Source: Streptomyces rubrogriseus
GTDB lineage: Bacteria; Actinomycetota; Actinomycetes; Streptomycetales; Streptomycetaceae
NCBI RefSeq assembly: GCF_027947575.1
Contig: NZ_CP116256.1
Coordinates: 6,386,001-6,450,000, forward strand
Direction: 5' to 3'
Length of the DNA stretch: 64,000 nucleotides
This document shows positions 5,525 to 26,100 of the stretch, piece by piece; position 1 is the stretch's first letter; each line of letters begins with the position of its first letter. Position numbers and translations under genes: made by a program. The notes under the pieces are model-generated. The model was not told where the DNA came from. It made no database searches and saw nothing but the letters and a program-made list of their open reading frames with translations.

Positions 5525-6328
5525 ATGACCGACGCACGGGGATCGGACGGCCGGATCGGCGAGACGAACGCCCGACGCGCGCCCGGCACGCCCTGCTGGG
5601 TGAGTCTGATGGTGCACGGACCGGCCGCCACCCACGACTTCTACGGTGCCCTGTTCGGCTGGGAGTTCCGGCCCGGCCCCCAGCAACTGGGCCCCTACGC
5701 GCGGGCCCTGCTCGACGGGCGGGAGGTGGCCGGCATCGGGCAGCTGCCCCCGGACCGGCAACTGCCCACCGCCTGGACGCCGTACTTCGCCTCCGACGAC
5801 GTCAACCGGACGGCGGAAACGGTGCGCCTGTGCGGTGGCACGGTCGGTGTCGGCCCCCTGGACGCGGGCGAGGCCGGCCGCATGGCCCTGGGCTCCGACC
5901 CGGCCGGCGCCGTCTTCGGGGTGTGGCAGGCGGCCGCGCACCTGGGCACGGCCGTCACGGGCCGGCCCGGCACACCGGCCTGGAACGAACTGCTGACGTA
6001 CGAGACGGCGGGCGTCGCCAAGTTCTACGAGACGGTCTTCGGCTTCGAACTGCTCCCGGATCCCTCCGCCGACCGCGACTACGTGACCCTGCGCATCGAG
6101 GGCCGCCCGGTCGCCGGCATCCACGGCGTGGGCGACGCCCTGCCGCGCGAGCGGGGTCCGCACTGGACGACGTACTTCGAGGTGGCAGACACGGACGAGT
6201 CCGCGGCGCACCTCGTCGACCTGGGCGGGCACGTGCTGGTCCCGGCCCACGACACGCCCCACGGCCGGGTGGCGACGGTGGCGGATCCGGAGGGGGCTCG
6301 GTTCACGCTGCTGCACGCTCGGCGGTGA
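5525..6328 (+). CDS. Two-domain VOC (glyoxalase-like) protein
   Basis: A 267-residue protein with two vicinal-oxygen-chelate domains. Each repeat has the FYGALFGWEF / FYETVFGFEL helix-strand signature (about residues 38 and 166), a mid-domain WTPYFASDD / WTTYFEVAD strand, and a terminal DPAGAVFGVWQ / DPEGARFTLLH strand. Such tandem VOC proteins in Streptomyces are often annotated hydroxylases or antibiotic-binding proteins, but the substrate cannot be read from the sequence. The ATG at 5525 follows GAAGAGGG; a GTG two codons earlier is possible. It ends 54 bp before the convergent aldolase gene. Confidence 0.8.
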   Translation: MTDARGSDGRIGETNARRAPGTPCWVSLMVHGPAATHDFYGALFGWEFRPGPQQLGPYARALLDGREVAGIGQLPPDRQLPTAWTPYFASDDVNRTAETVRLCGGTVGVGPLDAGEAGRMALGSDPAGAVFGVWQAAAHLGTAVTGRPGTPAWNELLTYETAGVAKFYETVFGFELLPDPSADRDYVTLRIEGRPVAGIHGVGDALPRERGPHWTTYFEVADTDESAAHLVDLGGHVLVPAHDTPHGRVATVADPEGARFTLLHARR

Positions 6329-6382: not shown

Positions 6383-7231
6383 TCAGCCGCTCACCACGGC
6401 GAGCAGGGCACGTACCGTCTCCGCCATCGTCTCCCGGCCGCGGGCGACGTAGGGGCGGGGGTCCGTCAGGTCGGGGCGCGCCGCCAGCGTCTCGCGCACC
6501 GCGCCCGTGAAGGCGATGTTGAGGGCGGTGCCGACGTTGACCTTCAGGATGCCCGCCCGGACGGCCCGCCGCAGTTCGTCGTCCCCGACTCCCGACGAAC
6601 CGTGCAGTACCAGGGGTACGGGCACGGCCTCCCGGAGCCGTTCGATCAGCGCGTGGTCCAGGGACGCGGAGCGTTCGGTCATCGCGTGGCTGCTGCCGAC
6701 GGCGACGGCCAGCGCGTCCACGCCGGTGTCCGCCACGTAGCTCGCCGCTTCCTGCGGGTCGGTGCGCACCCCGGCCGCGTGGGCGCTCGCGGGGGCGTCG
6801 GGTTTGCCCCCCACGTACCCGAGTTCGGCCTCCAGCCACAGGCCCGCGCCGTGGGCCCACTGTGCCGCGGCGCGGGTGGCGGCGAGGTTCTCGGCGTAGG
6901 GCTGTGCCCCGGCGTCGAACATCGCGGAGGAGAACCCGGCGTCGGCGGCCGTGCGCAGCAGCCGCATGTCCGTCACGTGGTCCAGGTGCAGCGCGACGTC
7001 GACGTCGCATGCCTTGCCGACCTCGGCCGCGGCCCGTGCGATCGGCTCGACGCGGCCGCCGTGGAACCGCACGGCGTTCTCGCTGATCTGCAGGATCACG
7101 GGGGCGCCCGCGGCCTGCGCACCGGAGGTGATCGCCTCGGCGTGCTCCAGCGTGATCACGTTGAACGCCGCGACGGCCCGGCCTGCGGCGGCGGCCTCCG
7201 AGACGAGTTCGCGCGTGGGAACCAGGGGCAT
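6383..7231 (-). CDS. Class II ketose-bisphosphate aldolase (GatY/KbaY/AgaY type)
   Basis: A 282-residue Zn-dependent aldolase: AFNVITLEHAEAI near the start, the metal-binding LHLDH (about residue 80), LEAELGYVGG, and the second metal His in VLHGSSGV followed by GILKVNVGT, all in the order of the FbaA/GatY family. Tagatose-1,6-bisphosphate or a related ketose bisphosphate is the likely substrate, because the gene closes a leftward operon that also encodes a GatZ/KbaZ-like protein and an AgaS-like isomerase. It would yield dihydroxyacetone phosphate and glyceraldehyde 3-phosphate. A 104-bp gap with a direct repeat CCGGCCGGTAC separates it from the permease gene upstream. Start ATG at 7231 is preceded by GAGGGGAA. 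Confidence 0.85.
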   Translation of the reverse strand: MPLVPTRELVSEAAAAGRAVAAFNVITLEHAEAITSGAQAAGAPVILQISENAVRFHGGRVEPIARAAAEVGKACDVDVALHLDHVTDMRLLRTAADAGFSSAMFDAGAQPYAENLAATRAAAQWAHGAGLWLEAELGYVGGKPDAPASAHAAGVRTDPQEAASYVADTGVDALAVAVGSSHAMTERSASLDHALIERLREAVPVPLVLHGSSGVGDDELRRAVRAGILKVNVGTALNIAFTGAVRETLAARPDLTDPRPYVARGRETMAETVRALLAVVSG

Positions 7232-7335
7232 GGGGGTGTTCCCCTCGCTTTCGTGTTGCTTCGACGGTCGGTCGGTCCGGCCGGTACGGCGGTTGCCGTC
7301 CGCACCGGCCGGTACGGGTGGGTGGGCGTTCGGGA

Positions 7336-8274
7336 CTAGCGTGCGACGGAACTCACGTCGTCGTCCGCCGCACCCGGTGCCACGGAACTCTCGCCGCTCT
7401 TCTCGTCGCTGTAGACCATCAGCGTCGAACCCGCGAGGGCGAGCACGATGCCGAGGGCGCCCCACACGCTGGGCAGCGTCTGGTAGACCGCCAGGGACAG
7501 CACGATGGTCAGGACCGGGGCGAGTGCGTTGGTGATGGGGGCGACCACGGTGGCCTTGCCCCGGCTGAACGCCATGACCAGGAACAGCGCGCCGACCGCG
7601 TTGAGGACCTGCGTCACCGCGGTGAGGGCCGGTGCCTGCCAGGGAGCCCCGGACGGGAAACCGCCCATGATCGCGAACGCCACGGGAACCAGCAGCAGTC
7701 CGCTGATGGTCATCCATCCGAAGGTGGTCGCGTCGTTGACCCCGACGAGCGCGGCCTTGCGCATGCAGAACGCCTGCACGCCCCAGGCGACGCAGATCAG
7801 GATGGCCATCGGCAGCCACGGGCCGTGCGCGTCCGAGTCGCCACCGCCGCTGGGGATGCTGAGCAGCACGATCGCCACCAGCGCCGCGACCACGCCCACG
7901 ACGGCGAGCCGGGTGATCCGCTCCCGCAGCAGCACCGTCGCCATGAGGACGGTGATGACCGGGGACAGGGACACCAGGGGGAAGATCAGGTACGCGGGCC
8001 CGTCGGCGAGCGCCTGGAACAGCAGCAGTTGTCCGCCGGCGCCGGTGAGGCCCGCGATCAGTCCGTACATCGCGGCGACCGGCCGGCGGTCGAACGTGTT
8101 GCCGCGCATCGCGAAGTACGCGGGGATGAGCATCGTGAAGGCCCAGATGATGTAGATCATCTCGTTGGGGTAGCCGTACCTGCTGTTCGGCTCGCTGGAG
8201 AAGGCGCCCCACACGCCCCAGAACAGGACCAGCAGCGACGCGTACAGGATCCAGCCTCTTGTGCCGTTCTTCAT
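7336..8274 (-). CDS. DMT/EamA-type permease, probable sugar uptake
   Basis: A 312-residue membrane protein with about ten hydrophobic helices arranged as two five-helix repeats, as in the drug/metabolite transporter superfamily. Features seen include LVLFWGVWGAF in helix 1, the ALADGPAYLIFPLVSLSPVITVL segment around residues 88-110 and a second copy-like segment AFSRGKATVVAPITNALAPVL near 240. Some DMT members (GlcU, RhaT) import sugars. It starts with ATG inside the stop of the kinase gene (ATGA overlap at 8271-8274), so it is co-translated with it, and no ABC or PTS importer is present in the cluster. I infer that it imports the sugar used by this operon; export cannot be excluded. Confidence 0.75.
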   Translation of the reverse strand: MKNGTRGWILYASLLVLFWGVWGAFSSEPNSRYGYPNEMIYIIWAFTMLIPAYFAMRGNTFDRRPVAAMYGLIAGLTGAGGQLLLFQALADGPAYLIFPLVSLSPVITVLMATVLLRERITRLAVVGVVAALVAIVLLSIPSGGGDSDAHGPWLPMAILICVAWGVQAFCMRKAALVGVNDATTFGWMTISGLLLVPVAFAIMGGFPSGAPWQAPALTAVTQVLNAVGALFLVMAFSRGKATVVAPITNALAPVLTIVLSLAVYQTLPSVWGALGIVLALAGSTLMVYSDEKSGESSVAPGAADDDVSSVAR

Positions 8275-9263
8275 TGTTCGTCCTCTCCTGAGGCGAGGGA
8301 CCCTGAGGCCTTGCGCAGCGCGTCGAGCGCCGGCCGGTCGAGCGGGGTTCCAGCGAGTTTCGCCGCGTACAGGGCGGCGCCCACGACGGGCTCGTACAGG
8401 GGGTGTCGCAGCTCGTAGCCCGCGAAGCGGCTCTTCAGCCCGGTGGTGAACGCCTCCAGGACCGGGGCGGCGCCGAAGGTACCGCCGGAGTAGGAGACGG
8501 GCACGGTCTCGTCCGGGCCGAACCCGAGCCGTTCGCGGGTGGCTTCGACCAGCAGGGCGAGTTCGCGGCCGGCCTCCGCGAGGATCGCCGCGGCGGTCTC
8601 GTCGCCCGCCGCGGCCGCCTCGGCCACCGAGCGGCTCAGTGCGGCGATCCGGCCGCGGTCGCCCTGCCACCGGTTGTGCACGACGTCGATCACGTCGAGG
8701 TCCGACTCCAGGCCGAGCCGGCTTCGGAACACCCCGGCCAGGGGGCCCTCGGGGAGCCGTCCGTCGCTCATCCGGGAGAAGGCGTTGAGGCCGCGGATCG
8801 CGATCCAGTACGCCGATCCCTCGTCGCCGAACGACTCGCTCCAGCCGCCGATGCGTACGCCCCGGCCCTGCCGCTCGCCGTAGGTCATCGAGCCGGTGCC
8901 GCTGATGACGTTGATGCCGTCGGCCGCGCCCAGCGAACCGGCCCAGCCGCAGACCATGTCGTTGTCGCACGCGTAGCGGTCGTGCCCGAGCACGGCCCGC
9001 GGTGTCGCGTCGAGCACGGGCAGGTCGCGGGCCGCCTCCCCGTAGCCGGGCAGGCCGAAGAAGGCGTACTCGATGTCGGCCGGGGACAGTTCGGCCGCCG
9101 CGCAGACGGTGCCGACGCCTTCCCTCAGCACCCGCTCGACGAGCTCGATGCCGTGGGAGAAGTAGTACGAGCTTGCCGCCTGGGCACGCGCCACCACTTG
9201 TCCGGACCGGTCGACCAGATAGAACGCGGTTTTCGTACCGCCGCCGTCGACACCCAGGAACAT
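8271..9263 (-). CDS. BadF/BadG-type sugar kinase (N-acetylhexosamine kinase-like)
   Basis: A 330-residue ASKHA-fold ATPase. It begins with the phosphate-1 motif GVDGGGTKT (residues 4-12), has INVISGTGSMTYG (adenosine/phosphate-2 type loop, about 116) and the GGWSESFGDEGSAYWI block characteristic of the BadF/BadG/BcrA/BcrD family that includes eukaryotic N-acetylglucosamine kinase and bacterial amino-sugar kinases. C-terminal motif SYSGGTFGA and PVVGAALYAA fit the second ATP subdomain. In this operon it most likely phosphorylates an imported hexosamine or N-acetylhexosamine at O6. It overlaps the permease start by four bases and is 49 bp downstream of the SIS gene. Confidence 0.8.
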   Translation of the reverse strand: MFLGVDGGGTKTAFYLVDRSGQVVARAQAASSYYFSHGIELVERVLREGVGTVCAAAELSPADIEYAFFGLPGYGEAARDLPVLDATPRAVLGHDRYACDNDMVCGWAGSLGAADGINVISGTGSMTYGERQGRGVRIGGWSESFGDEGSAYWIAIRGLNAFSRMSDGRLPEGPLAGVFRSRLGLESDLDVIDVVHNRWQGDRGRIAALSRSVAEAAAAGDETAAAILAEAGRELALLVEATRERLGFGPDETVPVSYSGGTFGAAPVLEAFTTGLKSRFAGYELRHPLYEPVVGAALYAAKLAGTPLDRPALDALRKASGSLASGEDEQ

Positions 9264-9312
9264 CGTCGTACCTCCGTCCGGCGCCCTCGATCCGCGCCGT
9301 TGCTGACTTCGA

Positions 9313-10470
9313 TCAGTCGTTCAAGGAGTGCAGGGTCACGCCCTGCACCACGCGGTTGACCTCACCCGAGGGGAACGGGTTGTCGGGCCGCAGACCCCGG
9401 ACCCGGGAGGCGCGCAGGGCGATGAGCTGGGCGTACACCACGGCGGGCAGTGCCAGGGCGGCGTCCTCGACGTCGCCGAGGCCCGGGAGCGGCCAGGCAT
9501 CGGTGCCCTCCGTTCCCGCGCCGCTCTCCGCGGAGACCGCGACGACACTGCCGACGGGAAGGTTTCCGCGCAGCTCCGCGACGATGTCGTGGTCGTACTG
9601 GCGGGTGTACGGGTCGTTCGACACGTACACCACCGCGACGGAACGTTCGTTGAGCACCGCCTTGGGACCGTGCCGGAAGCCCAGTGAGGACTCCGCGACG
9701 GCCATGAGCGTCCCGCCGGTGAGCTCCAGCACCTTCAGCGCCGACTCCTCGGCGAGGCCCTTCAGCGGGCCGCTGCCGAGGAAGACGATGCGCTCGGGTG
9801 CGCGGTCCACCAGGGCGCCGGCCGTGCGGTCGGCGGCGTCGTCCTCGATGATCGACTCCGCTGCCCGTGCCAGGCGTTCGGCGAGCCCGTCGCGGCCGCC
9901 CCCGCCCAGGGCGAGCAGTGCCGCGAGCGTCATGCAGGTGAAGCTCGACGTCATGGCGAAGCCGCGGTCGTTGGACGCGGCCGGCATCAGCAGCACGTGC
10001 GACCGCTGCCGCTGCGCGTGTTCGCGCGCCAGGCGGCCCTGGTCGTTGCAGGTGATCACGAGGTGGTGCACCTCGGAGAGGACCTGGTCGGCCAGGGCGG
10101 TGGCGGCGACGGACTCCGGGCTGTCACCCGACCGGGCGAAGGAGACCAGCAGCGTGGGCAGGTCCTCGGCGAGGCACCCGCGGGGGTCGGCGACGAGGTC
10201 CGTGGTGGCAACCGCGTCGACGCGCCGCCCCAAGTGCCGTGCCAGGGAGGGCTGGAGCACCTGCCCGGCGAACGCGGAGGTCCCGGCGCCGGTGAGCACC
10301 ACGCGCAGGTCGCCGCGTGCCACGAGCGGACCCAGGAACGCGTCCAGCGCTTCCCGGGAGGTTCCGACGATCCGGTCGACCTCCCGCCACAGGGCGGGCT
10401 GCTGGGCGATCTCGCGGACGGTGTGGACGGCGCTGTCGTCGACGGGCAGCGTGCCGGGGGGCGTGGTCAC
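9313..10470 (-). CDS. AgaS-like SIS-domain sugar-phosphate isomerase/deaminase
   Basis: A 385-residue protein with two SIS domains. The first contains VVLTGAGTSAFAGQ, LLVSFARSGDSPESVAA and ASNDRGFAMTSSFT; the second FLGSGPLKGLAEESALKVLEL and ESSLGFRHGPKAVLN. This combination is that of AgaS, a galactosamine-6-phosphate deaminase/isomerase that makes tagatose 6-phosphate and ammonia; GlmS-type glutaminase is absent. GTG start at 10470 overlaps the stop of the GatZ-like gene (GTGA, 10467-10470), indicating translational coupling. An upstream open extension is Arg/Pro-rich and rejected. Substrate choice between GalN-6-P and another amino-sugar phosphate is inference from the operon. Confidence 0.85.
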   Translation of the reverse strand: MTTPPGTLPVDDSAVHTVREIAQQPALWREVDRIVGTSREALDAFLGPLVARGDLRVVLTGAGTSAFAGQVLQPSLARHLGRRVDAVATTDLVADPRGCLAEDLPTLLVSFARSGDSPESVAATALADQVLSEVHHLVITCNDQGRLAREHAQRQRSHVLLMPAASNDRGFAMTSSFTCMTLAALLALGGGGRDGLAERLARAAESIIEDDAADRTAGALVDRAPERIVFLGSGPLKGLAEESALKVLELTGGTLMAVAESSLGFRHGPKAVLNERSVAVVYVSNDPYTRQYDHDIVAELRGNLPVGSVVAVSAESGAGTEGTDAWPLPGLGDVEDAALALPAVVYAQLIALRASRVRGLRPDNPFPSGEVNRVVQGVTLHSLND

Positions 10471-11786
10471 ACGAACTCCCTCTGGTTCTGGTTCCGGTTC
10501 TGGTTCCGGTCCTGGTCGGCGGCGCGGTCGTAGTCGCGCAGGACGTCGCGGACGTGGTCCACGACCAGTTCGCGCGGGCGGGCGGCCAGCTCGCCGCGGC
10601 GGACGCGGGCGTACTGGAGCGGAAGGTGCGCGCTGAGCAGGGGCAACGGGACGGCCGTGGCCGAGAGGTTGGCCAGCAGTCGGGTCTGGGCCGCTTCGAT
10701 CTCGGGGTCGGCCCAGTAGTAGCGCATCCGGTCGCTGTAGCTGTAGCGGCGTGCGAGGCGCTGCTCGGCGTCGCCGCCCGGGTAGTAACCCTCCCACTGG
10801 GCGGGCTCGGCGAGCATCCGCCGCTCGACGACCTCGGGAAGCCGTGACCGCTCGCCGGCCGGCACCAGCTCGTCCTCGATCGCGGCGAGGGCGAACAGCG
10901 CCTCGCGCAGGGCGAAGGTCAGCCCGGGGCCCACCTTGAGGACCGCCCAGTGGTCCTCGACCAGCGCGGTGAGCGCCTCGGCGGTCTGGTAGTCGGTCGA
11001 GTGGGCCTCGTAGACCATGGTGGGCTCGTCGTCGAGGACCTTGCGCAGTTCCTCGGTCGACTCCCGCCGGTAGTCGACGACCCGCAGGTGGTCGAACTCC
11101 ACGGCCGGCTGCACCACCAGGGCCATGACGCGCGGCCAGGCCCCTTCGACGCCGTGCCGGGCGAACGCCTTCCGGTGCTGCTCCAGGGTCGCGCAGGCCG
11201 CCTCGGGCGTGGTGGGCACCAGGGCGCCGAGCGTCTCGTGCGCGCCGCCGGGCGTCGGCACCTCGGTACCGATCACATACCGGATCCGCTCCGCCCGCTC
11301 CGGGCCCACCGTGTCCTCGGCCACCCGGATCAGACGCGCGGCGCGTTCGGCGACCACGTCGTCGGTCAGCGGTGCGGGGTCACCGGCGCACGCGAAGCTG
11401 CAGTCCAGGTGGATCTTGGTGAAGCCCGCCTCCGCGTAGGCCGCGACCAGCGCGTCGGCCTCCCCCATCGCCTCGTCGGGCGTCAGGGACTGCCACCGGT
11501 TCGGTCCGAGGTGGTCGCCGCCGAGGACGACGCGGTCCAGTGGCAGACCGTGTTCCGTCGCGATGCCGTGCACGAGGTCGCGGAAGTCCGCGGGCCGCAG
11601 GCCCGTGTAGCCGCCGTACTGGTCGACCTGGTTGGAGGTCGCCTCCACCAGTACCGGACCACCGGTCTCACGTGCCTGCAGCACGGCCGCCTCGATGACC
11701 AGCGGATGGGCCGAGCACACGGAGGTGATGCCCTGCGGTCGTCCGGCCTTCTGACGCCGGACGACCTCGTCCAACGGGCTCTCCAT
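10467..11786 (-). CDS. GatZ/KbaZ/AgaZ-like tagatose-bisphosphate aldolase accessory subunit
   Basis: A 439-residue TIM-barrel protein of the D-tagatose-bisphosphate aldolase class II non-catalytic subunit family: ITSVCSAHPLVIEAA, LVEATSNQVDQYGGYTG, VVLGGDHLGPNRWQ, KIHLDCSFACAGDP and YVIGTEVPTPGGA are characteristic. In E. coli these proteins support GatY/KbaY/AgaY aldolase activity; a sugar-phosphate kinase role has also been proposed for relatives. The matching GatY-like gene lies at the other end of this operon. ATG at 11786 follows GAGGGG; an in-frame upstream TTG/ATG extension lacks an RBS. The C-terminus is an unusual Asn/Gln/Arg repeat encoded by TGGTTC-type hexamers at 10482-10518. Confidence 0.85.
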   Translation of the reverse strand: MESPLDEVVRRQKAGRPQGITSVCSAHPLVIEAAVLQARETGGPVLVEATSNQVDQYGGYTGLRPADFRDLVHGIATEHGLPLDRVVLGGDHLGPNRWQSLTPDEAMGEADALVAAYAEAGFTKIHLDCSFACAGDPAPLTDDVVAERAARLIRVAEDTVGPERAERIRYVIGTEVPTPGGAHETLGALVPTTPEAACATLEQHRKAFARHGVEGAWPRVMALVVQPAVEFDHLRVVDYRRESTEELRKVLDDEPTMVYEAHSTDYQTAEALTALVEDHWAVLKVGPGLTFALREALFALAAIEDELVPAGERSRLPEVVERRMLAEPAQWEGYYPGGDAEQRLARRYSYSDRMRYYWADPEIEAAQTRLLANLSATAVPLPLLSAHLPLQYARVRRGELAARPRELVVDHVRDVLRDYDRAADQDRNQNRNQNQREFV

Positions 11787-11850
11787 CGCCAACCCCTCAC
11801 TGAAGTGCGATTTGAGCCCGTTTGCCGCGATGGCCCGAAGCTCATGCGGA

Positions 11851-11879
11851 ACGTTACTGGTCTTATTTTCGGCCGTCAA
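11851..11879 (-). promoter_or_regulatory. Probable promoter of the gatZ-agaS-kinase-permease-aldolase operon
   Basis: On the minus strand TTGACG (11879-11874) and TAACGT (11856-11851) are separated by 17 bases, a good match to the vegetative HrdB-type consensus, 65 bp upstream of the ATG. A 15-bp palindrome CAATAG-TCT-CTATTG (11877-11891) covers the -35 box. Confidence 0.65.
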
Positions 11880-11890
11880 TAGTCTCTATT

Positions 11891-11907
11891 GGTATGGTTC
11901 TGGTATG
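11891..11907 (+). promoter_or_regulatory. Candidate GntR operator, copy 1
   Basis: GGTATGGTTCTGGTATG contains GGTATG twice with an 11-bp period and lies directly upstream of the operon's -35 box. A 16/17 identical copy lies at 12790-12806 at the start of the adjacent gntR gene, in opposite orientation, so it is a good candidate binding site for that regulator. Confidence 0.6.
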
Positions 11908-11932
11908 CCTCCATGTCTGCTGGAACGGCGAC

Positions 11933-11965
11933 GGGCCGGGCGTCGGCTGCTCCGACGCCCGGCCC
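11933..11965 (-). terminator. Terminator of the gntR gene
   Basis: A perfect 14-bp stem GGGCCGGGCGTCGG / CCGACGCCCGGCCC with a 5-base loop, 39 bp after the gntR stop codon and before the operon promoter. It separates regulator transcription from the operon. Confidence 0.8.
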
Positions 11966-12003
11966 GGGCAGGTTCAGGTCTGGTCCGGTCTGGTCCGGTC
12001 GGT

Positions 12004-12792
12004 TCAGGTCTGGTTCGTGATGGAGGCCCGGAACCGGTAGCGGTCCCCCCGGTAGACCTGGACGGTCAGTTCGATCGGGCGGGCGTCCTGGTTGGAGGTC
12101 AGCTGGGTCGCGACCAGCATCGGCATGGTCGCCCCGATCTCGAGCAGCTCCATCTCCCGCGCCGTCGGATGGCGGGCTTCGACCGAGTAGTCGGCGACCC
12201 GGGGAAGCTGCGGCGGGTCGGCGGCGCGCAGGGTGGCGTACAGCGAGGCGGTGCTGAAGTCGGCGTCGGCCAGGGCCGGGCAGGCCGACAGCGGCAGCCG
12301 GTTGTGCTCCAGCACGACCAGCAGGCCGTCCAGGAAGCGCAGCCGGTGGAGGTCGAAGAGGTCGGCGCCCGGGGCGATCCGGAGCTGCTCGGCCTCCGCC
12401 ACGGTGGCCGGGCGGACGGTGGCGGAGAGCACCTTGCTGGCCGTCGTCAGACCGTTGGCCTCGGCGTAGTCGGCGAATCCCTGGACCTGGGGGGCGGCCG
12501 AGGCCGGCGCCGTCACCGTTTCGGGGAACAGGCCGGGTTCGGCGACGAACCACCCGCGCGACGACGACGGCCGCACGACGCCTCGCGCCTCCAGCTGGGC
12601 GAGGGCGGCCCGCAGTGTCACCCGCGAGACGGCGTACCGGGTGACCATGGCCCGCTCGGAGGGCAGCCGGTCACCGGGGCGGGCGCCGGCGGCACGCAGG
12701 TCGTCGAGGAGCCGCGCGGCCGTGCGCTCGTACAGCGGGAGGGCGTCGTCGGCGAAGAGGCCCCTGGGCATCGGCGTACTCGCTTCGGTCAT
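12004..12792 (-). CDS. GntR/HutC-family transcriptional regulator (UTRA ligand domain)
   Basis: A 262-residue regulator. Residues about 15-85 form the winged helix-turn-helix (LPLYERTAARLLDDLRAAG, LPSERAMVTRYAVSRVTLRAAL, GVVRPSSSRGWFVA); residues about 100-255 form the UTRA domain that binds sugar or amino-sugar phosphates in NagR/DasR-type proteins (FADYAEANGL, LFDLHRLRFLDGLLVVLEHNRLP). It sits between the sugar operon and the divergent secreted glycosidase and presumably controls both. The first ATG (12792) lies inside a copy of the candidate operator and has no Shine-Dalgarno; the second Met codon (12771) is a plausible alternative start, which would remove seven residues. Confidence 0.85.
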   Translation of the reverse strand: MTEASTPMPRGLFADDALPLYERTAARLLDDLRAAGARPGDRLPSERAMVTRYAVSRVTLRAALAQLEARGVVRPSSSRGWFVAEPGLFPETVTAPASAAPQVQGFADYAEANGLTTASKVLSATVRPATVAEAEQLRIAPGADLFDLHRLRFLDGLLVVLEHNRLPLSACPALADADFSTASLYATLRAADPPQLPRVADYSVEARHPTAREMELLEIGATMPMLVATQLTSNQDARPIELTVQVYRGDRYRFRASITNQT

Positions 12793-12806
12793 ACCAGAAA
12801 CATACC
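12790..12806 (-). promoter_or_regulatory. Candidate GntR operator, copy 2, overlapping gntR start
   Basis: GGTATGTTTCTGGTATG on the minus strand differs at one position from the copy at 11891-11907. Its last three bases are the first possible ATG of gntR, which suggests autoregulation. Confidence 0.6.
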
Positions 12807-12893
12807 GGTTCGACCGGCCGCGCAGGCATCCGGATCCCTCGCCCCCTCACCGGGACGGGGTGAACTCCTGCGCCGCGGTGGACCATTGGACCA

Positions 12894-12923
12894 TTGACAT
12901 GCCAATCGAATACCACTTACGTT
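12894..12923 (+). promoter_or_regulatory. Candidate promoter of the secreted glycosidase gene
   Basis: TTGACA (12894-12899) and TACGTT (12918-12923) are 18 bases apart, 112 bp before the ATG. A duplicated GGACCATT precedes the -35 and an ATTGG...CCAAT inverted repeat overlaps it. The 17-bp GntR motif is not obviously present here. Confidence 0.45.
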
Positions 12924-13035
12924 CTCGATGCAGGCCACCCGGAGCCCGAACGGTGCCGCCCTCGCCCTCACGGGTGTCCCGACTCCGTCCGAGGAGCCGG
13001 TTGCGGACGGAGCCTGCTCCGAGAGAGAGGCCGAC

Positions 13036-15105
13036 ATGACGGATGTGAACCGGCGCAGCGTACTGAAGGTGGCGCTGGGAGGTGCCGGCCTGGCCGCCTT
13101 CCCCTCGGTGGCCCTGGGTGCCACACCCGCGGCCGCGGCACCGCACGGCGGCCCCGAACTCGTCGGGGTCGGCGACACCTCCATCACCCTGGAGTTCGAC
13201 GACCGGCTGCGCAGCCGGGTGGCTTTGCGGGGCGTCGACGTCACCCGCTTCGACGCCGGTGAGGCCCTGCTGGTGGACGGCGGGGCGATCGACGAGTTCA
13301 CGTACGGCGGGCACGAGACCCGCAGGACCCGGCATTCCCGGCACGGCGCAGGCGTGAGCGTGACCGTCTGGGGCGAGTCCGCGACCGGAGTCCGCAAGAC
13401 GGTGGAGCTGACCTCCTACCGGCGCCTGACCGGGATGATCGTGATGAAGGTGACCTACACCAACGGGACCGGCGCCCCGCTGGCGGTCACCGGATGGCGC
13501 AGCGGGGCCCACGAACTCCTGGAGGTTCCCGGCGGCTTCCACACCTTCTCGGGAACCACGTACGAGGACCGTCGCGACTGGGTGCGGCCGATGACGGACG
13601 GGTTCGTCCAGGAGAACTCGCTGGGGATGGACGCCTCCGACTACGGCGGCGGCACCCCGATGGCGACCGTGTGGCGGCCGGGGGCGGGTCTCTCCGTCGG
13701 ACACGTCGAACCCGTGGCCAGGATGCTGCGCCTGCCCGTTCGCAGGACGGTCGGCGGAGCGAGCCTCGCCGTCGAGGGCGACACCCCCGTGACCCTGAAG
13801 CCGGGGCGGCGTCTGACCACCGACACCACGTTCCTGACCGCGCTGCCGGGCGACCACTTCGCACCGCTCCAGCGCTATCGCGACTACATGAGCGACATCG
13901 GCCGGCGTGCGCCCAGGACGCCCGGGCCGGCCCTGGAACCCATGTGGTGTGCCTGGGGCTACGAGCGGGACTTCACCGTCGAGCAGGTCGTCGCAACGCT
14001 CCCCAAGGTGCGTGAGGTCGGCCTCAAGTGGGCGGTCCTCGACGACGGCTGGCAGACCAACGAGGGCGACTGGGAGCTGGACCCGCGGAAGTTCCCGGGG
14101 GGCGCGGCGGACATGCGGGCCTTCACCCAGCAGATCCGGGACGCCGGTCTGCGGCCGCGCCTGTGGTGGGCTCCGCTGGCGGCGGACCCGGAGAGCAGCC
14201 TGTACCAGGACCACTCCGACATGCTCCTGCTGGACCGTGAGGGCAACAAGCAGCGGGTGAGCTGGTGGGACGCCTGGACCCTGTGCCCCGCGTACCGGCC
14301 GACGGTGGACTACTTCGTCGGGCAGGTGAAGCGGTTCATCGGCGACTGGGGATACGAAGGGCTCAAGATCGACGGCCAGCACCTCAACGCCGTCGCGCCC
14401 TGCTACAACCCGGCGCACGGGCATGCCCGCCCCGAGGAATCGACCGAGGGTCTCGCGCGGTTCTGGAAGGCGGTGTACGAGGCCGCGCACGAGGCGAACC
14501 GCGACGCCGTCGTCGAGCTCTGCCCCTGCGGCACCGCCTTCGCCTTCCACAACCTCCCCTACGTCGACCAGTACCCGAGCTCGGACCCGCTCTCCTCGTA
14601 CCAGGTCCGTACGAAGGGCAAGACGATGAAGGCGCTGATGGGCCGGGGCAGCAGCTACTCCGGCGACCACGTCGAACTGAGCGACGGCGGCGACGACTTC
14701 GCCTCCAGCTACGGTGTGGGAGCCGTGCTGTCGACGAAGTTCACCTACCCCGCGGGCCCGGACGACGCCATCGTGCTCACGCCGGAGAGGGAAGCCCTCT
14801 GGCGCCGGTGGGTGAACCTGTACGAGGAGAACCTGCTGTCCACGGGCGAGTACCGGGGCGAGCTGTACGACATCGGTTTCGACAAGCCCGAGGCGCACGT
14901 GGTGGCCAAGGGCGCGACCCTGCACTACGCGTTCTACGCCGGGCGGTGGGACGGGACGGTCGAGCTGCGTGGCCTGGGCCGCGGCAGGTACCGCCTGACC
15001 GATCCGTTCAACGGCACCTCTCTCGGCACCGTCGACGCTCGGCACAACACCGTGGAGCTGGCCTTCGAGCGGTTCCAGCTCGTCGTGGCCGAGCGCATCG
15101 GCTGA
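13036..15105 (+). CDS. Tat-secreted GH36-like alpha-galactosidase / alpha-N-acetylgalactosaminidase
   Basis: A 689-residue exported glycoside hydrolase. The N-terminus NRRSVLKVALGG is a twin-arginine signal, with likely cleavage after AAAA near residue 35. An N-terminal beta-sandwich region (about 40-290) precedes a TIM barrel starting at EPMWCAWGYERDFT; LDDGWQ, RLWWAPL and LKIDGQ (Asp about 446, likely nucleophile) followed by SSDP (Asp about 517, likely acid/base) are the expected order of clan GH-D (GH27/GH36). A C-terminal beta domain ends the protein. The adjacent operon for amino-sugar/tagatose breakdown makes alpha-linked Gal or GalNAc plausible substrates. ATG at 13036 follows GAGAGAGAGG. 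Divergent from gntR. Confidence 0.8.
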   Translation: MTDVNRRSVLKVALGGAGLAAFPSVALGATPAAAAPHGGPELVGVGDTSITLEFDDRLRSRVALRGVDVTRFDAGEALLVDGGAIDEFTYGGHETRRTRHSRHGAGVSVTVWGESATGVRKTVELTSYRRLTGMIVMKVTYTNGTGAPLAVTGWRSGAHELLEVPGGFHTFSGTTYEDRRDWVRPMTDGFVQENSLGMDASDYGGGTPMATVWRPGAGLSVGHVEPVARMLRLPVRRTVGGASLAVEGDTPVTLKPGRRLTTDTTFLTALPGDHFAPLQRYRDYMSDIGRRAPRTPGPALEPMWCAWGYERDFTVEQVVATLPKVREVGLKWAVLDDGWQTNEGDWELDPRKFPGGAADMRAFTQQIRDAGLRPRLWWAPLAADPESSLYQDHSDMLLLDREGNKQRVSWWDAWTLCPAYRPTVDYFVGQVKRFIGDWGYEGLKIDGQHLNAVAPCYNPAHGHARPEESTEGLARFWKAVYEAAHEANRDAVVELCPCGTAFAFHNLPYVDQYPSSDPLSSYQVRTKGKTMKALMGRGSSYSGDHVELSDGGDDFASSYGVGAVLSTKFTYPAGPDDAIVLTPEREALWRRWVNLYEENLLSTGEYRGELYDIGFDKPEAHVVAKGATLHYAFYAGRWDGTVELRGLGRGRYRLTDPFNGTSLGTVDARHNTVELAFERFQLVVAERIG

Positions 15106-24751: not shown

Positions 24752-26100
24752 TTGGCCGCCTCCTCGTTCTCGTCGGTGGCGTCGGTCTCGTCGGCGGGGG
24801 CGGTGGGCTCGTAGACGAGCACCGCGCGGTTGTCGGGGCGCAGGCGGGCCTTGGCGACCTCCTGGACCTCCTCCGCGGTCACCTCGAGCACCCGCTGCAC
24901 GGCGGTGAGGGCGAGCTGCGGGTCGCCGAACAGGACGGCGTACCGGCACAGTTCGTCCGCGCGGCCGGCGACCGTGCCCAGGCGGTCCAGCCACTCGCGC
25001 TCGAGCTGGGCCTGGGCGCGCTCCATCTCCTCGGCCGTGGGGCCCTCCTCGGCGAAGCGGGCCAGCTCCTCGTCGATGGCCGTCTCGATGACCGGCACCT
25101 CGACGTCGCCGGACGTCTTCACGTCCAGCCAGCCCAGGGAGGGCGCCCCGGCGAGCCGGAGCAGGCCGAACCCGGCGGCGACGGCGGTGCGGTCGCGGCG
25201 GACGAGCCGGTTGTACAGGCGGGACGACTCGCCGCCGCCCAGGACGGTCAGGGCCAGGTCGGCCGCGTCGCACGCGCGCGTGCCGTCCTCCGGCAGGCGG
25301 TAGGCCGCCATCAGGGCGCGGGCCGGGACCTCCTCCTCGACGACCTCCCGCAGTTCCCCGCCCATGACGTCGGGCAGCGCGCCGTCCCGGGGCGGCTGCT
25401 TGCCGTCGTGCGAGGCGATGGAGCCGAAGTACTTCTCGATCCACGCGAGTGTCTGCTCGGGGTCGATGTCGCCGACGACCGAGAGCACCGCGTTGTTCGG
25501 CGCGTAGTAGGTGCGGAAGAACGCGCGCGCGTCCTCCAGGGTCGCCGCGTCCAGGTCTGCCATCGAGCCGATCGGCGTGTGGTGGTAGGGGTGGCCCTCC
25601 GGGTAGGCGAGGGCGGTCAGCTTCTCGAAGGCGGTGCCGTAGGGGACGTTGTCGTAGCGCTGGCGGCGTTCGTTCTTGACGACGTCCCGCTGGTTCTCCA
25701 TCGACTCGTCGTCCAGGGCGGCGAGCAGGGAGCCCATGCGGTCGGCCTCCAGCCAGAGGGCGAGCTCCAGCTGGTGGGCGGGCATGGTCTCGAAGTAGTT
25801 GGTCCGCTCGAAGCTGGTGGTGCCGTTGAGCGAGCCGCCGGCGCCCTGCACCAGCTCGAAGTGGCCGTTGCCCTTGACCTGGGCGGAGCCCTGGAACATG
25901 AGGTGCTCGAAAAGGTGAGCCAGGCCGGTGCGCCCCTTGACCTCGTGGCGCGAGCCGACGTCGTACCAGAGGCACACCGCCGCGACCGGGGTCAGGTGGT
26001 CCTCGGAGAGCACCACGCGCAGGCCGTTGGCCAGGCGGTGCTCGGTCGCTGTCAGGCCGCCGGAGCCTGCCTGGGCTGTGGCCGTGTGACCCATGGGCAT
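24748..26100 (-). CDS. M16-family zinc metallopeptidase, catalytic subunit
   Basis: A 450-residue insulinase/processing-peptidase-type enzyme. The inverted zinc motif HLFEH is at residues 62-66, with the third ligand Glu in ENQRDVVKNERRQRYD about 70 residues later. Cytoplasmic: no signal peptide. It is paired and translationally coupled with the zinc-less subunit downstream, suggesting a heterodimeric chamber protease for short peptides. The C-terminus is acidic (DETDATDENEE). ATG at 26100 follows GAAGGG; a second ATG two codons later is possible. It is divergent from parC. Confidence 0.88.
   Translation of the reverse strand: MPMGHTATAQAGSGGLTATEHRLANGLRVVLSEDHLTPVAAVCLWYDVGSRHEVKGRTGLAHLFEHLMFQGSAQVKGNGHFELVQGAGGSLNGTTSFERTNYFETMPAHQLELALWLEADRMGSLLAALDDESMENQRDVVKNERRQRYDNVPYGTAFEKLTALAYPEGHPYHHTPIGSMADLDAATLEDARAFFRTYYAPNNAVLSVVGDIDPEQTLAWIEKYFGSIASHDGKQPPRDGALPDVMGGELREVVEEEVPARALMAAYRLPEDGTRACDAADLALTVLGGGESSRLYNRLVRRDRTAVAAGFGLLRLAGAPSLGWLDVKTSGDVEVPVIETAIDEELARFAEEGPTAEEMERAQAQLEREWLDRLGTVAGRADELCRYAVLFGDPQLALTAVQRVLEVTAEEVQEVAKARLRPDNRAVLVYEPTAPADETDATDENEEAAK

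Follow-up and report, generated by a model that had tools for sequence, protein, structure and literature searches.

The window analyzed here is a 64,000-nucleotide stretch of the Streptomyces rubrogriseus genome (positions 6,386,001 to 6,450,000 of a single 8.41 Mb contig). It harbors seven neighboring genes that, by a modest balance of the evidence, probably constitute a locally regulated unit for galactosamine (GalN) utilization; we infer the enzymatic activities and the direction of transport from the computed gene identities, conserved gene order, operator pair, active-site residues, and co-occurrence. A sequence-only reading of the same DNA had described a catabolic island for amino sugars, of the AgaS type, with a kinase and a drug/metabolite transporter (DMT) permease in the position of a phosphotransferase system (PTS). 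The gene content supports this description; all seven named genes give profile matches where they had been placed, with AgaS and GatZ scoring over curated cut-offs. As had also been claimed, no ATP-binding cassette (ABC) or PTS importer is found among the genes called in the unit, the genome outside the unit not having been searched for PTS genes.

Five of the genes form one minus-strand run. The gatZ gene (10467..11786; longest open reading frame, ORF, to 11879) encodes a putative tagatose-6-phosphate 4-epimerase and matches TIGR02810 with 672 bits (cut-off 569). It is followed by agaS (9313..10470), of the galactosamine-6-phosphate deaminase/isomerase family, with 586 bits to TIGR02815 (cut-off 529). 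A BadF-family kinase of 330 amino acids (8271..9263; PF01869, 252 bits), the putative galactosamine kinase, precedes an EamA/DMT permease of 312 amino acids (7336..8274), the putative galactosamine importer, which contains two EamA repeats (PF00892, 103 bits); the kinase and permease genes overlap by 4 bases. The run ends with a GatY-like class II aldolase of 282 amino acids (6383..7231; PF01116, 275 bits, scanned as 6383-7207). A GntR/UTRA regulator (12004..12792, start perhaps 12771; PF00392 and PF07702) is encoded on the same strand, while the gene for a glycoside hydrolase family 36 (GH36) enzyme of the FpGalNase kind is divergent, on the plus strand (13036..15105; longest ORF from 12928; PF02065, 51.6 bits), and its N-terminus reads as a twin-arginine (Tat) signal. 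Many of the longer ORFs in this high G+C window (69-76%) are shadow frames. Comparison with orthologues and the in-frame ATG codons make it likely that the true starts lie after the longest-ORF starts, near 11786 for GatZ, near 13036 for GH36, and perhaps at 12771 for GntR.

Thirty-one loci were compared, comprising the window, 11 genome pieces, and 19 records, after two duplicates and one distant fragment had been dropped. The genes gatZ, agaS, and badF (the kinase) are collinear in all 31. The DMT gene follows the kinase in all 30 assessable loci (29 by the gene caller and L039 by tblastn); the contig of L062 stops within badF and can be assessed for neither DMT nor gatY. The latter is present in 28 of the 31 loci, gntR in 27, and gh36 in 22. 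Beyond these seven, any given gene family is common to at most five of the loci, and those found in four or five come mostly from close relatives of the window. Because all seven genes stand in identical order in 22 of the 31 loci and no other family is widely common, the unit represents more than a chance assembly. Among the 31 loci there is likewise no common amidohydrolase-like family and no other common transporter family, transporters elsewhere in the genome not having been surveyed. The core also recurs at greater distance, with identities of 49-72%: L040 and L041 belong to a second family of the class, whereas L039 and L042 come from the phylum outside that class. In the 20 kb read of L039 and of L042, the four core genes are present and gatY is not. 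In all four of these distant loci, the DMT permease exceeds the other three core proteins in conservation (66-72%).

The distribution of the unit was surveyed in 150 genomes of the genus, including that of the window (GatZ over cut-off, DMT with E up to 1e-40, GH36 with E up to 1e-30), and in 396 genomes of the phylum (DMT with E up to 1e-30, AgaS with E up to 1e-60). Only a limited set of candidates is scored in each genome, which bounds the absences. Within the genus, GatZ occurs in 8 of 150 genomes and DMT in 9, namely those eight and G130, such that DMT accompanies GatZ in 8/8 genomes as against 1/142 of the others (Fisher p 1.7e-12, kinship ignored). In the phylum sample, the five genomes with DMT (5/396) are identical to those with GatZ over cut-off, and 16 further genomes with weaker GatZ-like matches are without DMT. 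GH36 is found in eight genomes of the genus: six of those with GatZ, G130, and G045. A reading in which the GH36 gene of G130 is broken by a TGA codon was dropped; an open frame of 686 amino acids is present, the match having begun upstream of the likely start, and only gatZ is largely gone from that locus.

AgaS is present in 25 of the 396 phylum genomes, 20 of which belong to two families (f19 and f40), and only the AgaS of the window's own genome exceeds the TIGR02815 cut-off. PTS subunits are encoded upstream of agaS in four of the six f19 and f40 loci looked at; no match was obtained for a fragment in L103 or for three ORFs of L100. At the AgaS loci of the phylum without DMT, an amidohydrolase gene adjoins agaS in five of five tested, and a GntR/UTRA gene also flanks in all five. 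The phylum sample shows two architectures, one combining a PTS with a deacetylase and the other a kinase with DMT and GatZ.

A putative operator pair flanks the GntR gene. One copy, CATACCAGAACCATACC (11891..11907, minus strand), lies upstream of gatZ, and the other, CATACCAGAAACATACC (12790..12806, plus strand), lies between gntR and the GH36 gene; the two predicted sites differ by one base. Within two mismatches, the motif CATACCAGAANCATACC, which can be read as GGTAT repeated directly at a distance of eleven bases, has only these two sites in the 8.4 Mb genome, whereas the backward motif used as a control has zero sites in the whole genome under the same limit. When up to three mismatches are allowed, the window contains three sites where 0.09 would be expected, and the additional one is at 25962. 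Of the 27 loci with gntR, 26 have a site within two mismatches, and a fixed distance rule places sites on both sides in 11 of them; all 41 sites across the loci lie where gntR or gatZ begins. Eight apparently far sites, located 220-260 bases before the gatZ start, are probably explained by a start called too late. The arrangement suggests that the GntR/UTRA protein binds both putative operators. It is proposed that this protein represses both transcription units via the two sites until a sugar phosphate releases it.

The enzymes of the minus-strand run outline a route from an amino-sugar phosphate to glycolysis. The best solved relative of AgaS is 3c3j (290 bits). Wichelecki et al. reportedly described in 2015 a PF08013 protein that epimerizes tagatose-6-phosphate, an account that does not serve as a basis here. 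GatZ residues were numbered by alignment to 2fiq, which we take to be E. coli GatZ. Of the metal-ligand and catalytic residues named for the epimerase (PMC11907403), six (E44, D87, H88, E171, H257, and K279) are kept in 31 of 31 GatZ sequences, while C20 is present in 21 and falls in gaps in 10. E. coli GatZ and KbaZ are reported to have C4-epimerase activity between fructose-6-phosphate and tagatose-6-phosphate, observed as conversion of the former to the latter (PMC11907403). Because of this activity and the conservation of the named residues, a tagatose-6-phosphate kinase appears not to be required for the route.

In the classical route, by contrast, a PfkB-type kinase encoded elsewhere would phosphorylate tagatose-6-phosphate, and GatYZ would be a tagatose-1,6-bisphosphate aldolase with GatZ as its accessory subunit. 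The presence of gatY in most loci is consistent with this alternative, as is the report that KbaZ is needed for full in vitro aldolase activity and stability (PMC3668189). Candidate kinases also exist, since the genome encodes one 1-PFK-family protein over cut-off and weaker PfkB-family matches outside the unit, including a split gene adjoining nagA. We nevertheless consider the classical route improbable, given the epimerase activity of the E. coli proteins, the absence of gatY from the 20 kb read around the core in L039 and L042, and the finding that no tagatose-6-phosphate kinase gene is present in the unit. The PDB comparison does not assign GatY to the tagatose- or the fructose-bisphosphate aldolases, as solved members of both groups give it similar scores.

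The identity of the sugar is addressed primarily by the GH36 enzyme. Among solved structures, it is closest to 8x1b, 9awt, and 9ayu, entries of the FpGalNase type (236-239 bits over residues 115-708), of which 9awt and 9ayu carry the entry name A type blood alpha-D-galactosamine galactosaminidase; other solved alpha-galactosidases reach 56 bits or less and align with part of the barrel. FpGalNase releases free galactosamine. Of nine FpGalNase residues considered in one report (PMC11762096), seven are matched in the alignment as printed, and 22 of 22 GH36 orthologues agree at the catalytic and FpGalNase positions. The predicted models of the GH36 enzyme and of the DMT permease, with mean predicted local distance difference test scores (pLDDT) of 36.0 and 38.8, are too poor for a fold comparison. 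No deacetylase gene (agaA or nagA) is found in the unit, and AgaS without AgaA has been used as a signature of galactosamine use in one study (PMC5583593). Because GH36 is nearest to FpGalNase and a deacetylase is missing from the unit, galactosamine is the likelier substrate than N-acetylgalactosamine (GalNAc). Two genes for GH114 endo-galactosaminidases occur in the genome; these were rejected as support for galactosamine because 138 of the 150 genus genomes carry GH114, which is therefore uninformative and shows only that fragments could be made. A Streptomyces griseus galactosaminidase is also mentioned in the literature, with its sequence stated as not known (PMC12054363).

According to the sequence-only reading, genes for a deacetylase and a tagatose-6-phosphate kinase had to be encoded elsewhere unless the substrate is galactosamine. 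Neither gene is in the island, as that reading had stated; a nagA gene and PfkB-family kinase genes (substrate unassigned) lie outside it, and the galactosamine alternative is favored here, but the demand for a tagatose-6-phosphate kinase falls away if GatZ acts as an epimerase. The nagA gene at 8.02 Mb is the only one in the genome over cut-off. After it comes a frame for a PfkB-family kinase, split in two either by a natural frameshift or by a sequencing error (L128:9161-11323; G000:C1:8022161-8024323). Since NagA is encoded elsewhere, S. coelicolor NagA acts on GalNAc-6-phosphate in vitro (PMC12680351), and E. coli NagA can stand in for AgaA (PMC3668189), use of GalNAc by way of this distant gene is possible.

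If GalNAc were the proper substrate of the unit, GH36 would be an alpha-N-acetylgalactosaminidase and the kinase would produce GalNAc-6-phosphate, which the distant NagA would deacetylate before AgaS acts. The activities reported for NagA in both organisms are compatible with such a scheme, as is the presence of N-acetylglucosamine (GlcNAc) kinases among the BadF relatives. It is rather unlikely, however, in view of the galactosaminidases nearest to GH36 and of nagA, which has no operator copy in the genome search within two mismatches. Moreover, the five tested AgaS loci of the phylum without DMT keep an amidohydrolase beside agaS, while the DMT-type loci share no such family.

Several observations weigh against a galactosamine import and utilization unit. 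The gh36 gene is missing from 9 of the 31 loci, and G045 (L090:9627-11696, G045:C13) carries a GH36 orthologue of 80% identity with the other six genes not found within the 20 kb read. In G130 (L089:5911-13800, G130:C25), gh36, gntR, agaS, the kinase, DMT, and gatY are kept, with only a short remnant of gatZ matching residues 23-59, as if gatZ had been deleted. The AgaS proteins of the four distant loci score below the TIGR02815 cut-off. In the GH36 enzyme, D482 corresponds to the FpGalNase nucleophile D463 only after a two-residue gap shift, and Y464 is not kept. The kinase is remote from any characterized kinase, with 74 bits to the NagK_SO3507 model (cut-off 370) and 92 bits to its best solved relative, a MurNAc/GlcNAc kinase. 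Sequence comparison gives no convincing solved relative for DMT, and most EamA proteins of known function are exporters. Finally, DMT is retained in L040 and L041 although the same run there encodes an ABC importer as well as a GH4 protein of the alpha-galactosidase type.

In these two loci (L040:927-12534 and L041:655-12131), the core is joined by a CUT1-type ABC importer, a GH4 gene, and a DeoR-family regulator. The GH4 protein of L040 scores over the cut-off of an alpha-galactosidase model, and its DeoR regulator, the only one tested, reaches 160 bits with the AgaR model (cut-off 260). Relatives of the two L040 ABC permeases also occur somewhere in the 21 kb locus L059. An ABC importer in all relatives had been named as grounds for abandoning the sequence-only reading, and such an importer is found in the same run in only 2 of the 31 loci.

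The layout of L040 and L041 may reflect two feeding routes, or DMT may export. An exporting DMT would be a relief valve for excess amino sugar or a by-product, with GalN entering through a transporter encoded elsewhere. Its retention beside an ABC importer and the dominance of exporters in the EamA family fit this role, and increased expression of the major facilitator superfamily transporter SCO1448 is reported to ease glucosamine toxicity in S. coelicolor (PMC12680351). We regard export as quite unlikely, since the compared loci share no other transporter family, the DMT gene overlaps a kinase gene whose product has a role only when sugar arrives unphosphorylated, and DMT is the best conserved core protein in the distant loci. 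An import function is likely, though not proven, on the basis of the gene position, the overlap with the kinase gene, the near-exclusive association with the unit, and the lack of another common transporter.

It is hypothesized that the Tat-exported GH36 enzyme would cut terminal alpha-linked galactosamine outside the cell; possible sources are fragments of partly deacetylated galactosaminogalactan or of Pel-like polymers. Free galactosamine would then enter through the DMT permease, the BadF-family kinase would form galactosamine-6-phosphate, and AgaS would deaminate and isomerize it to tagatose-6-phosphate. GatZ would epimerize the latter at C4 to fructose-6-phosphate for entry into glycolysis, while GatY would act on a ketose bisphosphate further down. 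GalNAc could share this route through the NagA encoded elsewhere. A more ambitious proposal, which we advance tentatively and would place somewhat short of an even chance, is that the locus encodes a complete system for GalN and not for GalNAc, with a dedicated amino-sugar importer of the EamA/DMT kind, a BadF-family galactosamine kinase, a C4-epimerase exit to glycolysis, and a secreted exo-alpha-galactosaminidase.

The unit is of interest as a candidate route by which some soil actinomycetes may feed on the cationic polymers of galactosamine present in fungal and bacterial biofilms, and as the source of a candidate GH36 exo-galactosaminidase outside gut bacteria. It raises the question of amino-sugar import by an EamA/DMT protein, and it suggests that such a pathway can dispense with a tagatose-6-phosphate kinase. 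Convergent to gatY, positions 5525-6328 of the window encode a glyoxalase-domain protein that reaches 160 bits with the model of the AfsK-binding protein KbpA (cut-off 250).

The AgaS, GatZ/KbaZ, and GatY/KbaY families are shared with the aga/gam pathway of E. coli. That pathway employs PTS uptake, the DeoR-type regulator AgaR, and the deacetylase AgaA (PMC3668189, PMC12118421), whereas the present unit has a kinase and an EamA/DMT permease, a GntR/UTRA regulator, a secreted GH36 enzyme, and no deacetylase of its own. The PTS loci of the f19 and f40 Actinomycetota likewise combine AgaS with a GntR/UTRA gene (5/5 tested) but differ in the amidohydrolase beside agaS (5/5 tested) and the PTS (4/6), and their genomes are without DMT (E 1e-30) and without GatZ over cut-off.

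The sequence-only reading had considered the combination new. Replacement of a PTS by a kinase and a permease is already known from the GalNAc pathway of Shewanella, in which AgaP and AgaK take this role together with AgaS (PMC2996990). The permease family does differ, as AgaP belongs to the GGP family and the permease here consists of two EamA repeats (PF00892). The Shewanella pathway also includes AgaA, and the text of that report as available mentions neither an EamA protein nor GatZ (PMC2996990). In the literature searched, judged by titles and the openings of abstracts, no account was found of a Streptomyces kinase-DMT-GatZ-AgaS unit with a co-regulated GH36 enzyme. FpGalNase of Flavonifractor plautii is related to the GH36 enzyme over its full length and, in the alignment as printed, in seven of nine active-site residues; it works with a GalNAc deacetylase on the blood group A antigen (PMC11762096), whereas the enzyme here has no adjoining deacetylase and does not keep Y464.

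The csnREFGHK chitosan operon of Streptomyces resembles the unit in its local repressor, its kinase, and the extracellular depolymerization of an amino-sugar polymer (PMC6097792), and L040 and L041 further share its layout of an ABC importer with GH4. The csn operon differs in using an ABC oligosaccharide importer and a ROK-family repressor and, as we read the report, in serving the gluco and not the galacto series. If the proposal of a complete GalN system is correct, the unit would stand beside the chitosan system of Streptomyces as its equivalent for the galacto series, and would probably consume galactosaminogalactan from fungi or Pel-type polymers.

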